64,000 nt of DNA from Micropruina glycogenica (GTDB lineage: Bacteria > Actinomycetota > Actinomycetes > Propionibacteriales > Propionibacteriaceae): the NCBI RefSeq assembly GCF_900289045.1, contig NZ_LT985188.1:124001-188000 (forward strand), read 5' to 3'. A model generated the notes under the pieces. The model was not told the DNA's origin, did no database searches, and was given only the letters and a program-made list of their open reading frames with translations. Each line of letters starts with the position of its first letter. The first letter of the stretch is position 1. Position numbers and translations under genes: made by a program. Below are positions 12,202-19,413 of the stretch, piece by piece.

Positions 12202-14103
<1,902 letters not shown>

Positions 14104-14115
14104 CGCACGTGTTCC

Positions 14116-14142
14116 GGCCCGTGGGTGAGACGCCCACGGGCC
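14116..14142 (+). terminator. Hairpin between dnaK and grpE (possible attenuator)
   Basis: GGCCCGTGGG and CCCACGGGCC pair around a 7-base loop in the short gap after dnaK. There is no long T-run, so readthrough into grpE is expected; it may lower downstream expression or protect the dnaK 3' end. Confidence 0.55.
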
Positions 14143-14163
14143 CGGTTCTGCGAAGGAGAACCT

Positions 14164-14721
14164 GTGACGAACGAGGAGCAGCTACCCGCTGACCACCCCG
14201 TGACCCCCGATGAGGCCGAGGGCCTGGTCGAGGAGTCCACCCTGGCCGACGCCACCACCCCCGAGGGCTTCAACGATTCGATCGTCTCGGCCAAGATCAG
14301 CGAACTCGAAGAGCTGGCTGCCGAGCGCACCGCCGACCTGCAGCGGCTGCACGCCGAGTACGCCAACTACAAGAAGCGTGTCGACCGCGACCGTGCGCTG
14401 GCCCGGCAGGGCGGCATCGAGGCGGTGGTACTCGACCTGCTGCCGGTGCTCGACAGCATCGAAGGTGCGCGCGAGCACGACGAGTTGACCGGCGGTTTCA
14501 AGCTGGTCGCCGACGAGATCGAAAAGGTCGGCGCCAAGTACGGGCTGAGCGTGTACGGCGAGGTCGGCGACCCGTTCGACCCCAACGTGCACGAGGCCCT
14601 CATGCACGTGCCGATGCCCGGCGTCGAGGTCACCACCGTGTCGGCGGTCATGCAGAAGGGCGTCCGCCTCAACGACCGGGTGCTGCGCCCGGCCCGGGTC
14701 GGCGTAGCCGAACCCGAATGA
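14164..14721 (+). CDS. grpE: Nucleotide exchange factor GrpE
   Basis: DnaK co-chaperone of 185 residues that speeds ADP release. An acidic, poorly structured N-terminus (about residues 1-50) is followed by a long coiled coil ([28 protein letters not shown]) and the beta-domain end [14 protein letters not shown] and [16 protein letters not shown], both hallmarks. The start is GTG 14164 with GAAGGAGAA upstream; an earlier in-frame ATG would run into the hairpin that follows dnaK. It lies between dnaK and dnaJ in the standard actinobacterial order. Confidence 0.97.
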
Positions 14722-14777
14722 GCGCTGGCCGCGCTCGCCACAACTACGATCGACGGCACCTGAAAGGAGGCGTCTGA

Positions 14778-15932
14778 ATGAGTACCAAAGACTGGATCGA
14801 GAAGGACTTCTACAAGGTTCTCGGCGTGTCGAAAGACGCCAAGCCCGACGAGATCAAGAAGGCGTTCCGCAAGCTGGCCCGTGAGAACCACCCCGACCAG
14901 AACCAGAACGACCCCAAGGCCGAGCAGCGGTTCAAAGACATCAGCGAGGCCAACTCGGTACTGTCCGACCCCGCCAAGCGCAAGGAGTACGACGAGGCCC
15001 GCAGCCTGTTCGGCGGCGGCGGCTTCCGCTTTCCCGGCGGTGGCCAGGGGCCGTCAATGGAAGACCTGTTCCGCAACGCCGGCGGCTCCGGCGCCGGCGC
15101 GGCGAGCGGCAACATCAGCGACCTGTTCGGCAACCTGTTCGGCGGCACGTCCACCCGGCGCACCACCACCCAGCGCGGCCCGCGCCGTGGCCAAGACATC
15201 GAAGGCGAGGCGACGATCGACTTCACCGACGCCGTCGAAGGGGTCACGGTCACCATGCAGACGGTGTCGGACGAGGCGTGCGGGGCCTGTTCGGGCACCG
15301 GCGCCAAATCGGGCACGCTGCCGCGGGTGTGCCCCACCTGTCAGGGCAGCGGCATGGAAACCTCGACCTCAGGCGGTGTCTTCGCGGTCAGCGAACCGTG
15401 CCACGACTGCCGCGGTCGCGGATTGATCGTCGAAGAGCCCTGCCCGGTGTGCGGCGGCTCCGGCCGCGGCCGCTCGACCCGGTCGATGCAGGTGCGCATT
15501 CCCGCCGGGGTCACCGACGGGCAGCGCATTCGCATCAAGGGCAAGGGCGGCGCCGGCGAGAACGGTGGTGCCCCGGGCGACCTGTACGTGCTCGTGCACG
15601 TGCGGCCGCACAAGCTGTTCGGCCGCAAGGGCGACAACCTCACCCTGACCGTGCCGGTCACCTTCACCGAGGCCGCCTTGGGCGCCGAGGTGTCGGTACC
15701 CACCCTGAACGGCCAGCGGGTCACCCTGAAGCTCGGCCCGGGCACCCCCAACGGACGCACCTTCCGGGTGCGCGGCCGGGGCGTGCACAAGAACGACGGC
15801 AGCACCGGCGACCTGCTGGTCACCGTCGAGGTGCAGGTGCCCAACCAGCTCAACGACACCGCCAAGGAAGCGCTCGAGAGCTTCGCCGCTGCGCTCGGTG
15901 ACGCCGACCCGCGCTCGTCGCTGTACGCGTGA
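14778..15932 (+). CDS. dnaJ: Chaperone DnaJ
   Basis: Hsp40 co-chaperone of 384 residues that stimulates DnaK ATPase. The J domain (about 10-75) has the HPD motif in RENHPDQNQ; a Gly/Phe-rich linker follows (FGGGGFRFPGGG). The zinc region contains four CxxCxGxG-type repeats beginning CGACSGTGAKSG and CPTCQGSG. C-terminal substrate domains end in SLYA. AAAGGAGG lies upstream of the ATG. The stop overlaps the hspR GTG (GTGA), so regulator and chaperone are translationally coupled. This operon-linked form corresponds to DnaJ1 of other actinobacteria. Confidence 0.98.
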   Translation: MSTKDWIEKDFYKVLGVSKDAKPDEIKKAFRKLARENHPDQNQNDPKAEQRFKDISEANSVLSDPAKRKEYDEARSLFGGGGFRFPGGGQGPSMEDLFRNAGGSGAGAASGNISDLFGNLFGGTSTRRTTTQRGPRRGQDIEGEATIDFTDAVEGVTVTMQTVSDEACGACSGTGAKSGTLPRVCPTCQGSGMETSTSGGVFAVSEPCHDCRGRGLIVEEPCPVCGGSGRGRSTRSMQVRIPAGVTDGQRIRIKGKGGAGENGGAPGDLYVLVHVRPHKLFGRKGDNLTLTVPVTFTEAALGAEVSVPTLNGQRVTLKLGPGTPNGRTFRVRGRGVHKNDGSTGDLLVTVEVQVPNQLNDTAKEALESFAAALGDADPRSSLYA

Positions 15933-16426
15933 GCGCCATGACCGAGCCGACCGGTTTTCTGCCCCAGCGCATCGATTCGGACGCGCCCGTGTTCGTGATC
16001 TCGGTGGCCGCGCAGTTGGCCGACATGCACCCCCAGACCCTGCGCGGCTACGACCGGCTGGGTCTGGTGGTGCCCAAGCGGGCCCGCGGCCGTGGCCGCC
16101 GTTACTCGCTGCGCGACATCGCCACCCTGCGGCACATTCAGCACCTGTCGCAGAACGAGGGCATCAACCTCGAGGGCATTCGGCGCATTCTGGCGCTCGA
16201 GAACGAGTTGGACGCCGTGCGCGCCCAGCTCTCCCGCGTGGCCGACCTGCTCACGGCCCTGCAGCACGAGGTGCCGGCCGCACGCATCTTCACTGCTGCG
16301 GCCGCCGGTGACGTGCACCTGGGTCGCAGCGCGGCGCGCCGTCCGGCTCTGGCCCTGCCCAGTCGGGCGAGCACCGCCCGCGATCTGGCGCGGCGTGACG
16401 TGCCGCCGGTTTCCAAAGCCCTCTGA
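15929..16426 (+). CDS. hspR: Heat-shock repressor HspR (MerR family)
   Basis: Transcriptional repressor of 165 residues that binds HAIR elements. The N-terminal winged helix is MerR-like: VFVISVAAQLADMHPQTLR, YDRLGLVVPKR, RRYSLRDIATLRHIQHL and NLEGIRRILALE, followed by a coiled dimer helix and a basic, Ala/Arg-rich tail of about 45 residues. The GTG overlaps the dnaJ stop. Matching operators occur upstream of dnaK (two) and clpB (one) in this window, so the regulon core is visible here. In Streptomyces HspR requires DnaK as co-repressor; this is family knowledge, not seen in the sequence. Confidence 0.96.
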   Translation: MSAMTEPTGFLPQRIDSDAPVFVISVAAQLADMHPQTLRGYDRLGLVVPKRARGRGRRYSLRDIATLRHIQHLSQNEGINLEGIRRILALENELDAVRAQLSRVADLLTALQHEVPAARIFTAAAAGDVHLGRSAARRPALALPSRASTARDLARRDVPPVSKAL

Positions 16427-16846: not shown

Positions 16847-17536
16847 GCTTGGTGAGGTACCCCGCGCCGGCCGGACCGGGCCGGCAGGTCGGGAGCGATG
16901 TGCCACTCCACGATCACCCCTACCGCCAGCACCCCGTCCTCGGCGTTGATGTCTGAAAGAGGTCGTCGGGGCATCGGCTGATACCGCCGTCGAGCGTCAG
17001 CCGGTGGCGTGACTGACTGGGCCGTGCGGTGCTGGGGCCAATGCCTACTTGCGCCCACCACTCGACATTGCGGCGAACGCGGGAATCTCACGACGCAACC
17101 ATGAGGCCCGAGGGACCGCACGCGGCCCACCCTCGTCCACCAGAGATCCCGGCTTCCTGCGCACAGTTGGCGTGAGTTGGGGACGGTTCCGATCTCGCGC
17201 CACCCTGGCCGCACCCCTGTGGCGTGAGTTGGGGACGGTTCCGATCTCGCGCCACCCCGGCCGTCCGCACCCCTGCCGCTGGTCGGCGATCTCGAGATCG
17301 CTGCAGACTTTCAGCCGCGCTGCACGCTTTCGCCCTGCAACACGCCATCACGTGGCCGGCCCGAAATCGTGCCGCGATCTCGAGATCGCAAACCCTCACC
17401 GGGGTGCAGACGAGTGCATGCGGGATCGTCCGGCCGATGAATCAGCGGGGACGGCGGCACCCACCCACCGGAGCGGTGCAACGACTTCGTCCACGCAGCG
17501 CTCGGAACTGTCGGAGCCGGCGGGCATGCTTGCGTC
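16847..17536. other. Gene-free stretch with repeats
   Basis: No intact gene is seen in these 690 bases. They hold two 33 bp palindromes (17169-17201, 17221-17253) and a 104 bp element with palindromic ends (17286-17389). Immediately before 17537 a CATGCT hexamer (17525-17530) sits 6 bases from the protease ATG and is its likely -10. Open frames in the stretch have the composition of repeats rather than proteins. Confidence 0.7.
17286..17389 (+). repeat. 104 bp element with palindromic ends, copy A
   Basis: Both ends carry the 16 bp palindrome GCGATCTCGAGATCGC (17286-17301 and 17374-17389). The interior matches the reverse complement of copy B at 50689-50792, sharing pieces such as GCGCTGCA, CTTTCG and CCTGCAACACG in the same order; both copies are exactly 104 bp. 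Confidence 0.85.
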
Positions 17537-18907
17537 ATGACACACCCCCGGCACACCATCATTCCGCCCTACTTATTGCGGCACCTGGCCGAGTCGGCCG
17601 ACGATTCTGTGGCGGCTCGCGCCGAGTCGACGCTGCGGGTCGACCAGACGTTTCGGTCAGATCGGCGCGCCGTTGCTGCGCAAGCGACCTTCCGCCCCAC
17701 GGCCATCACTGTTGCCGCCGCACCGAACCGCGAGATCAGCACTGCCAAGAACGCCAGGCGATTGCCCGGCACCGTGGTGCGGCGCGAGGGCGAGGCGGCC
17801 ACCGGCGACGCCGCCGCCGACGAGGCCTACGACGGCTTCGGCGCCACGTGGGCCCTGTTTCACGACGTCTATGGCCGCAACTCCATCGACGGCGCGGGCA
17901 TGACACTGGCCGGCACGGTGCATTACGACAAGGGCTACGACAACGCGTTCTGGAACGGTGAGCGCATGGTGTTCGGCGACGGTGACGGCGAGATCTTCGG
18001 CCGGTTCACCGCCAGCCTCGAGGTGATCGGCCACGAACTCACCCACGGGGTCACCGAGAGCACGGCCGGCCTGATCTACCAGGGCCAACCCGGTGCCCTC
18101 AACGAGCACGTCTCGGACGTCTTCGGGGTGCTGGTCAAGCAGCACAGCCTCGGCCAAGACGCCACTACGGCCGACTGGCTGGTGGGCGCAGATCTGCTGC
18201 TGCCCGGTGTCGCAGGCGTCGCCATTCGCAGCATGATCTCGCCCGGCACCGCCTACGACGACCCGCGCCTGGGCAAGGACCCGCAGCCCGACCACATGAG
18301 CGACTTCGTCACCACCAGCGACGACAACGGCGGCGTGCACATCAACTCCGGCATTCCCAACCGGGCGTTCGCGCTGGCGGCACGCGCCATCGGCGGCCAG
18401 GCATGGACGGCGGCGGGCCAGATCTGGTTCGACGTTCTGACCGGTGCCGACATCACCGCCCGCACCGACTTCGCCACCTTCGCCCGCTTGACGGTGGCGG
18501 CGGCTGCGGCCAGGTTCGGTAGCGACAGCGCGCAGCACGACGCGGTGCGCGACGGGTGGGTCACGGTCGGAGTGCAACTCGACGCACAGGTCGACGCGGC
18601 GCCGTCCGAGCCCCCAGCCGGCGCCGACGCCGAGTTGCTCCTGCGCCGCACCGGTGGCCTGGCAGGGCTGGTCAAAGAGCGTCGCACCACGCTCGACGAG
18701 TTGCCGGCCAAAGACGCCAAGCGGTGGAGCAAGCTGCTCACCTCCGACACCCTGCAGTCGCTCAGCGGCGGCAACCCGGCTGTGGACGGCTTCTGCTACC
18801 GAGTGGCCTGCGAGGCGCTGTCGGTCGACGTGACCGTGCCCGAGCAGCAACTCAGCGAGTCGCAGCGCAACCTGTTCAAGCGCACCCTGCACCAAGGCGA
18901 TCAGTAG
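17537..18907 (+). CDS. Protealysin-like M4 metalloprotease with C-terminal emfourin-like domain
   Basis: Zinc endopeptidase of 456 residues with no signal peptide, as in protealysin. Residues 5-60 resemble the short protealysin propeptide (IIPPYLLRHLAES). The catalytic domain (about 80-350) has HELTH at 166-170 with the third zinc ligand Glu190 in GALNEHVSDVFG, and the proton-donor His268 in GGVHINSGIPNRAF. After a Pro/Ala linker (351-363), residues 366-451 (LLLRRTGGLAGL, DELPAKDAKRW, DGFCYRVACE) resemble emfourin, the protein inhibitor of protealysin, here fused to the enzyme. The ATG is 6 bases after a CATGCT hexamer. Fusion to the inhibitor suggests a built-in latency mechanism; this is inferred. 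Confidence 0.9.
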   Translation: MTHPRHTIIPPYLLRHLAESADDSVAARAESTLRVDQTFRSDRRAVAAQATFRPTAITVAAAPNREISTAKNARRLPGTVVRREGEAATGDAAADEAYDGFGATWALFHDVYGRNSIDGAGMTLAGTVHYDKGYDNAFWNGERMVFGDGDGEIFGRFTASLEVIGHELTHGVTESTAGLIYQGQPGALNEHVSDVFGVLVKQHSLGQDATTADWLVGADLLLPGVAGVAIRSMISPGTAYDDPRLGKDPQPDHMSDFVTTSDDNGGVHINSGIPNRAFALAARAIGGQAWTAAGQIWFDVLTGADITARTDFATFARLTVAAAAARFGSDSAQHDAVRDGWVTVGVQLDAQVDAAPSEPPAGADAELLLRRTGGLAGLVKERRTTLDELPAKDAKRWSKLLTSDTLQSLSGGNPAVDGFCYRVACEALSVDVTVPEQQLSESQRNLFKRTLHQGDQ

Positions 18908-18916
18908 GCCACGGCC

Positions 18917-19056
18917 AGCTCGTCGAGACCCATCCCGTTGGTCTAGCTCGTCGAGACCCATCCCGTTGGTCTAGCTCGTCGAGACCCTTCCCGTTGGTCG
19001 AGCCTGTCGAGACCCTTCCCGTTGGTCGAGCCTGTCGAGACCCTTCCCGTTGGTCG
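18917..19056. repeat. 28 bp tandem array, five units
   Basis: Five consecutive 28 bp units of the type AGC(T/C)(C/T)GTCGAGACCC(A/T)TCC followed by CGTTGGTC(T/G). The unit is a variant of the dispersed GGTCGAG...GTCGAGACC repeat. There are no spacers, so it is not a CRISPR array. Confidence 0.9.
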
Positions 19057-19413
19057 AGGGCCTGCTTTTCGAGCCCGTTCTGGATGAGTCTCTTGCCGCG
19101 GAGTGGCACTGCAGCCCGTCCCGCCCGGGTCAGCCTCACCGGCTTCGCAGGCTCCGCCGCTGAGTTGGCCCGGACGCCGGCATCACCACCCGTGACCGGC
19201 TCTTTCGTCATCCCGGCGGACGCCGGGATCTCACAGGCCGGGTCTCGACAGGCTCGACCTGCGGTGGTCTCGACGAGCTCGACCAACGCGGTCTCGACTT
19301 ACGTCCCCGTCATTCCGGCGAACGCCGGAATCTCTCAGGTGCGGTCTCGACAAGCTCGACCGACGGCTCGCCCCCGCTCGACCTGCTTCACCCGCGCCGA
19401 CGATACTGGGCCC
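19057..19413. other. Gene-free stretch with REP-like hairpins
   Basis: Holds CCCGGCG-type hairpins (CATCCCGGCGGACGCCGGGA at 19209-19228 and a related one near 19312-19331) and several more GTCTCGACAAGCTCGACC-type motifs. No gene is supported. The end carries GATACT (19402-19407), a likely -10 for the fdhD region. Confidence 0.7.

Follow-up and report, generated by a model that had tools for sequence, protein, structure and literature searches.

A protealysin-like M4 protease fused to an emfourin inhibitor domain in Micropruina glycogenica, with a putative DNA-damage-type promoter

The window analysed here is a stretch of 64,000 nucleotides from the genome of Micropruina glycogenica (contig NZ_LT985188.1, positions 124,001 to 188,000), and all positions are those of the window. 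On its forward strand, 456 codons without interruption (17537-18907) encode a protealysin-like M4 protease together with an emfourin domain (Table 1), the only emfourin in this genome (3.84 Mb, single contig). NCBI taxonomy places Micropruina under Nocardioidaceae, and most named relatives (best-segment identity 59-70%) belong to Micropruina. The nine neighbouring ORFs scanned with Pfam include the dnaK operon, fdhD, a transporter and a kinase (two had no match). The dnaK-grpE-dnaJ-hspR genes lie upstream of the fused gene (12247-16423), as they do in four of five Micropruina loci (L060, L062, L063 and L064; not L061), and fdhD is found downstream in 4/5. The gene is also flanked by repeats: a 28-bp tandem repeat lies directly 3’ of it in five copies (18917-19058), with related pieces to ~19370, and interspersed repeats with the unit gagttggggacggttccgatctcgcgccacc lie upstream (17177-17400), as does the palindrome GCGATCTCGAGATCGC, present at 17286 and 17374. 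No hairpin was evident after the gene, where 186 bases fold no better than shuffled sequences (z 0.60).

Table 1. Features of the fused gene and its upstream region.
Feature	Residues	Position	Strand	Basis
Promoter core of RecA-NDp/PafBC type, TGTCGG-N10-CATGCT		17509-17530	+	kept before aligned fused genes; same pattern and spacing before DNA-repair genes
Fused gene, protealysin-like M4 protease and emfourin inhibitor	456 aa	17537-18907	+	domain and structure-sequence matches
Propeptide, P10-P11 invariant (PPYLL motif)	8-45	17558-17671	+	2vqx alignment; 31 fusions; PLN_propep 24.5 bits, cut-off 28.1
M4 catalytic domain	65-346	17729-18574	+	PF01447, PF02868; model matches 2vqx
HELTH motif, zinc-binding and catalytic (H166, E167, H170)	166-170	18032-18046	+	invariant in 31 fusions
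Third zinc ligand by homology	E190	18104-18106	+	invariant in 31 fusions
Catalytic histidine by homology	H268	18338-18340	+	invariant in 31 fusions
Pro/Ala-rich flexible linker	347-365	18575-18631	+	length and sequence variable; pLDDT 54 at residues 351-360
Emfourin domain (M4 protease inhibitor)	366-451	18632-18889	+	PF20242 2.2e-15; 6zyg profile match 1.1e-10
Glycine pair of first inhibitor loop (GGLAG)	G373-G374	18653-18658	+	invariant in 39 fused and separate emfourins
Single invariant Asp	D417	18785-18787	+	39 fused and separate emfourins; aligns with an Asp of 6zyg

Pfam searches with the 456-residue protein returned Peptidase_M4 (1.2e-28), Peptidase_M4_C (6e-48) and Emfourin, the last at residues 369-450 with 57.3 bits against a cut-off of 27. 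This confirms that protease and emfourin domain share one chain, as the original prediction, made from the sequence alone, had said, and that its emfourin-like C-terminal domain (residues 366-451) matches the emfourin profile. A frame error or other artefact is ruled out because 30 further distinct proteins have the same domain order in one frame.

Among solved structures, the protealysin precursor 2vqx is closest in sequence; phmmer aligns it with residues 6-346 (8.2e-108), propeptide included. The HEXXH motif, the Glu ligand and the catalytic His that define M4 peptidases are all present, and the five residues concerned are invariant in 31/31 fusions, as are P10 and P11 of the propeptide. 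The prediction of a protealysin-like protease with a propeptide-like N-terminus is upheld by these alignments, the Pfam propeptide profile scoring just below its cut-off on residues 6-33; propeptides of protealysin-like peptidases span about 50 residues and carry a PPL-type motif. On direct reading, the N-terminus (MTHPRHTIIPPYLL) contains no hydrophobic segment, in agreement with the predicted absence of a signal peptide.

In searches with the emfourin domain, the C-terminal 101 residues of the M. glycogenica protein did not find 6zyg (‘Protealysin-associated protein’) as sole query, and a profile of 39 emfourin domains, that of M. glycogenica included, did. Only G373, G374 and D417 are invariant in 39 emfourins (4 fused, 35 separate); all three are likewise invariant in 31/31 fusions, every one of which carries F, V, I or L at position 375. 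In the 39-domain profile D417 aligns with one Asp of 6zyg, and we take it to correspond to the zinc-binding residue of the Serratia emfourin. In the emfourin structure published in 2023 (J Biol Chem), an Asp reportedly binds zinc and a hydrophobic loop binds the pocket. A tblastn search with the M. glycogenica domain for emfourins in phages gave 0 matches in 50,697 records.

Across the 31 fusions, the M4 domain has a median identity of 71% to that of the M. glycogenica protein; the corresponding values are 49% for the propeptide, 44% for the emfourin domain and 12% for the linker. The faster divergence of the emfourin than of the protease, together with its loss in one fused lineage (L172), might be read as signs of a relic, or of a domain with another task (e.g., substrate binding) and no inhibition left. 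This is very unlikely given the invariance of D417, G373 and G374 and the omega values: in the three pairs with the lowest divergence among the 14 listed, the emfourin domain is under purifying selection (0.13, 0.13 and 0.07; M4 domain 0.06, 0.11 and 0.09). In the other eleven pairs omega is 0.22-1.52 for emfourin and 0.24-0.61 for M4, values for which dS is probably saturated in this high-GC DNA. Both domains look functional from these sequence comparisons.

Linkers vary in length as well as in sequence: within the aligned region they have a median of 18 and span 16-70, and 17-71 aa separate the domain matches. Thermolysin-like enzymes cut before hydrophobic residues, and these account for 6.8% of pooled linker residues, vs. 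28.6% of the M4 domain and 11.7% of the propeptide junction, where cutting is expected. Because the linker is unconserved and poor in hydrophobic residues, no dedicated cleavage site is visible in it. Residue 355, near which the inhibitor was predicted to be cut for release, does fall within the linker, but the idea that release needs a cut there is not supported by a segment of this kind. Were the linker cut during maturation, the product would be a classical two-part complex, and the fused gene would only ensure a 1:1 supply, as the Serratia operon does. Free variation of linker length and sequence would be expected if equal expression alone matters, and the Serratia emfourin acts as a separate protein (PMC9505478). 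The scarcity of hydrophobic residues disfavours self-cutting, with the qualification that disordered linkers are low in them anyway, and the single frame has been kept in 50/51 genomes having both parts. We therefore regard a cut linker as a possibility to be taken seriously without calling it probable.

The full-chain AlphaFold2 model (49 sequences; mean pLDDT 85.6, pTM 0.74) has a confident emfourin domain with the order EE-H-EE-H and a weak linker. VIA-align superimposed 312 of its residues (8 to 347) on 2vqx (Z 41.7, rmsd 2.3), compared with ~270 for mature thermolysins, and the propeptide is thus modelled at its precursor position. The model without propeptide (residues 65-456, 53 sequences) reached pLDDT 90.9 and pTM 0.80, a value between the 0.71 and 0.86 that we roughly estimate for unplaced and placed domains, respectively, and the pLDDT of the inhibitor-loop blocks rose from 83-84 in the full chain to 92-94, with the reservation that the two alignments differ. 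A cleft that passes from propeptide to emfourin would fit this shift weakly. No emfourin structure was among the best 50 of 210 Foldseek matches in the PDB or among the 50 entries listed by VIA-align; the protease part fills both lists, which are silent on the emfourin fold. The conserved G373, G374 and D417, the confident domain model and the long flexible linker are consistent with inhibition within the same chain. Linkers that leave as little as 17 aa between the domain matches occur, as might be expected if the emfourin inhibited in trans between two chains to give dimers or larger assemblies. We consider this unlikely, as a tether should favour same-chain binding at cellular concentrations, and the confidence of the mature-form model is compatible with packing inside one chain.

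Directly upstream of the gene, a -26-type element (17509-17514) and a -10 hexamer (17525-17530) precede the start codon, which follows 6 nt later. Upstream of 31 fused genes, counted from the start codon, TGTC at -28 to -25 and single bases at -23 (G), -11 (A), -8 (C) and -7 (T) each recur in 24-28/31. This arrangement resembles the RecA-NDp, for which we assume the consensus TTGTCRGTG-N8-TAnnnT. The M. glycogenica site has three mismatches in the 12 fixed positions and CATGCT instead of TAnnnT as its -10 hexamer, and so is a weaker copy that is missing from the genome list of sites with up to two mismatches. With up to three mismatches allowed, the assumed consensus occurs in 28/39 distinct fused upstream regions (1.42 expected; the remaining 11 lie further from it) and in 3/11 further ones (0.45 expected; 14 regions minus L227, L229 and L230, which have no usable start). 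Counts are 4/38 for separate Actinomycetota pairs (2.17 expected) and 3/50 for other phyla (4.72 expected). Looser and stricter patterns gave 29 and 19 of 39 fused regions (0.42 and 0.04 expected), vs. 7 and 0 of 89 separate downstream pairs (2.39 and 0.12 expected). The RecA-NDp is a RecA-independent promoter activated by PafBC (PMC8223512, PMC6789036), which contacts a ‘-26 promoter motif’ (PMC11804915).

Across the M. glycogenica genome the pattern TGTCRG-N10-YANNCT occurs 38 times, vs. 10 times for a reversed control. We examined 16 of these sites, namely, besides that of the fused gene, all 13 with TA and the three with CATGCT; a start codon follows 6 or 7 nt after the pattern in 15/16, and 12 of those 15 starts open frames of at least 300 aa (background, 49/2816 positions). 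The genes behind the sites include uvrB, uvrC, recG, radA, polA, ligA, a LigD polymerase, a gyrB-like gene and holA, the last with the same -10 hexamer CATGCT as the fused gene, as well as two DUF222-type genes (one identified by Pfam, the other by resemblance alone) and, outside DNA repair, a dapD-like gene. The recA promoter carries a perfect TTGTCAGTG-N8-TAGGGT, so that the RecA-NDp motif stands before recA and nine repair/replication genes, and a PafC HTH is encoded in the genome (4.7e-41). No LexA box was found before the fused gene in 17101-17540, the best candidate having 4 mismatches.

A full 22-position matrix that includes the spacer recovered 6/39 fused regions at the lowest training score, 9/39 at 3 bits less and 0/11 further fused regions. 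A nine-position matrix without spacer, at cuts of 8, 9 and 10, recovered 44, 42 and 40 of 50 fused regions (3.59, 1.27 and 0.67 expected), 11, 8 and 8 of 38 separate Actinomycetota regions (3.29, 1.06 and 0.54 expected) and 11, 2 and 0 of 50 from other phyla (7.99, 3.56 and 1.38 expected). Because the nine-position matrix was chosen after the 22-position result, and because the protease promoters were the source of the pattern that supplied nine of the ten sites used to train it, we base the promoter claim on the count for the assumed consensus. The fused genes thus appear to carry RecA-NDp architecture close before the start codon; the motif is conserved, and induction by DNA damage would be its expected consequence.

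Effector and immunity roles have been suggested for the Serratia protealysin-emfourin pair by the authors of PMC9505478, and the fused protein could by analogy be an antibacterial effector that carries its own immunity domain, leaves the cell by an unspecified route and is freed in a neighbouring cell. We find this most improbable: there is no signal peptide, the Pfam-scanned neighbours (nine ORFs, two of them without a match) are not a secretion system, the promoter points to DNA damage, and an immunity domain that leaves with its toxin protects no sister cells.

The fusion is a lineage-wide trait. Among 197 genomes of the family of M. glycogenica, 58 have an emfourin match, 57 a whole-protein match at 1e-20 and 51 both; in 50 of these 51 the two parts lie in one frame, as read from the loci in 29 (M. 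glycogenica included) and from match coordinates in 21 (21/21 in phase). The sole exception, G076, is not a split fusion, because its protease groups with L042 and L046 in a different clade. Six genomes have the protease and no emfourin at Pfam level. Our own emfourin profile identified two of them (G074 and G159) as fused, G159 being broken by a stop, and found no emfourin in G113 and G134; G025 and G132 break off at contig edges. An emfourin without a whole-protein protease match occurs in seven genomes, and one of the seven lies at a contig edge. In a phylum sample of 396 genomes, 31 have an emfourin, and the fetched loci outside the family have separate frames or no M4 frame seen, with the exception of L170, a second locus of G281. 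This genome, of another family, carries the fused L170 and a separate protease-emfourin pair (L042) of a different clade.

Of 166 loci with an M4 frame, a number that counts duplicates, 65 are fused, 90 have a separate emfourin gene downstream on the same strand, seven have it upstream and one on the other strand, and three have none; a separate same-strand emfourin gene is thus present in 97/101 non-fused loci. In seven loci with an upstream emfourin gene (L070, L072, L076, L080, L095, L114 and L117), the protease frame extends 76-180 residues past the M4 match. Emfourin-like domains also end frames of 205-362 aa in L177-L182 (four of them in one genus), with no M4 frame in the locus, and may there have another partner.

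On a tree built from 37 fused proteases and 31 others, two changes are required; L172, nested among the fused rows, accounts for one of these as a loss. The starred branches of the careful tree force two changes, and the fused rows form one clade (one change) in 0/200 bootstrap trees; an earlier quick tree also gave two changes, with a Microbacterium/Brevibacterium clade among the fused rows. One fusion of neighbouring genes, followed by one loss (L172), would fit the tree. In Microbacterium loci (L119-L139), the unfused proteases have CGTCGG-N10-TAGGGT upstream of the PP motif at a consistent distance, which may represent a variant DNA-damage promoter, and the unfused G134 protease (L174, around base 1920) has a RecA-NDp-like TGTCGGAAGG...TAGGGT and a leader with a ribosome-binding site. 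Because related sites precede the Microbacterium pairs and the G134 protease, DNA-damage-type control may be older than the fusion.

Our preferred reading, to which we assign a probability of roughly 60%, is a cytosolic, DNA-damage-induced zymogen that is locked first by its propeptide and then by the emfourin domain of the same chain. Transcription would start at the RecA-NDp promoter, PafBC raising expression of the fused gene after DNA damage alongside recA and the excision-repair genes, and the chain would be synthesised as a zymogen with the propeptide covering the cleft. Once the propeptide is removed, the tethered emfourin would occupy the cleft, with its Asp bound to the zinc and the substrate pocket filled by its GG(hydrophobic)AG loop, and would keep the enzyme off while the cell lives. 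Activation would require failure of this lock, through cleavage of emfourin or linker by a second protease, the dilution that follows lysis, or competition from a substrate. We infer that the two locks are sequential and not simultaneous, because both are expected at the same cleft.

Serratia protealysin cleaves RecA and FtsZ in vitro (PMC9505478). UV survival is reported to be lowered in E. coli carrying protealysin, and UV sensitivity is not significantly changed in Serratia without the protealysin-emfourin operon. The fused protease might be a DNA-damage-induced executioner or brake, made in doubly locked form with RecA and the repair enzymes. Its cis lock would fail once damage is beyond repair or the cell starts to die, and the released enzyme would destroy targets such as RecA and FtsZ and end the damage response or the cell. 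We offer this tentatively and think it rather improbable; if true, fusion to the inhibitor would be an adaptation that makes such an enzyme safe to express in a living, stressed cell.

To our knowledge, thermolysin-like proteases have few protein inhibitors, and emfourin has been known as a free partner. The natural single-chain form offers a ready construct for studying the enzyme-inhibitor contact and how a cell unlocks the enzyme. If the promoter works as it looks, a broad-specificity protease lies within the actinobacterial DNA-damage regulon; this placement adjoins the report of a Serratia enzyme that destroys RecA, and makes the long-open role of these cytosolic proteases directly testable. 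The lineage-wide fusion and the DNA-damage promoter both go beyond the original prediction. The titles and abstracts searched, a set that does not extend to the two main emfourin papers, mention neither a fused protease-emfourin nor DNA-damage control of such a protease. The fusion architecture may already be known, because public domain databases may show it, which would leave the promoter link as the newer part.

Compared with RecA-NDp promoters of the PafBC regulon, the fused gene has TGTCRG and a -10 hexamer at equal spacing close before the start codon, and differs in the hexamer itself (CATGCT). The available portions of the PafBC-regulon literature (PMC8223512, PMC6789036, PMC11804915) mention no protease of the protealysin type. 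In Serratia, emfourin is a separate protein encoded in the same operon as protealysin (PMC9505478), in line with the original prediction; it binds 1:1 at the active-site region of protealysin, and optical density falls earlier in cells without m4in (PMC9505478). The pln-m4in operon of Serratia proteamaculans likewise combines a protealysin-type M4 protease with a short propeptide, which the fusion probably shares, an emfourin directly after it and no signal peptide, in two genes where M. glycogenica has one chain. Its regulation is tied to quorum sensing (PMC9505478), whereas the M. glycogenica gene has a putative DNA-damage-type promoter. Serratia protealysin is kept as an inactive precursor until lysis and has the autoprocessing site RS↓VI (PMC6778150), a counterpart of which may be read in the fused protein as T↓II before PPYLL. 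The separate protease-emfourin pairs of other Actinomycetota (Streptomyces-like, Microbacterium, Brevibacterium) share domains, order and strand with the fusion at a short distance, and differ in their separate frames and in the low consensus count before them (4/38, given above). Thermolysin-like propeptides are cis-acting locks of M4 enzymes. The fused protein resembles such zymogens with N- or C-terminal inhibitory extensions, of which 2vqx is a precursor structure, in having a putative cis-acting M4 lock, and would differ from them in that its extra lock comes from a family of free-standing inhibitors, sits after the catalytic domain and is present beside the propeptide.
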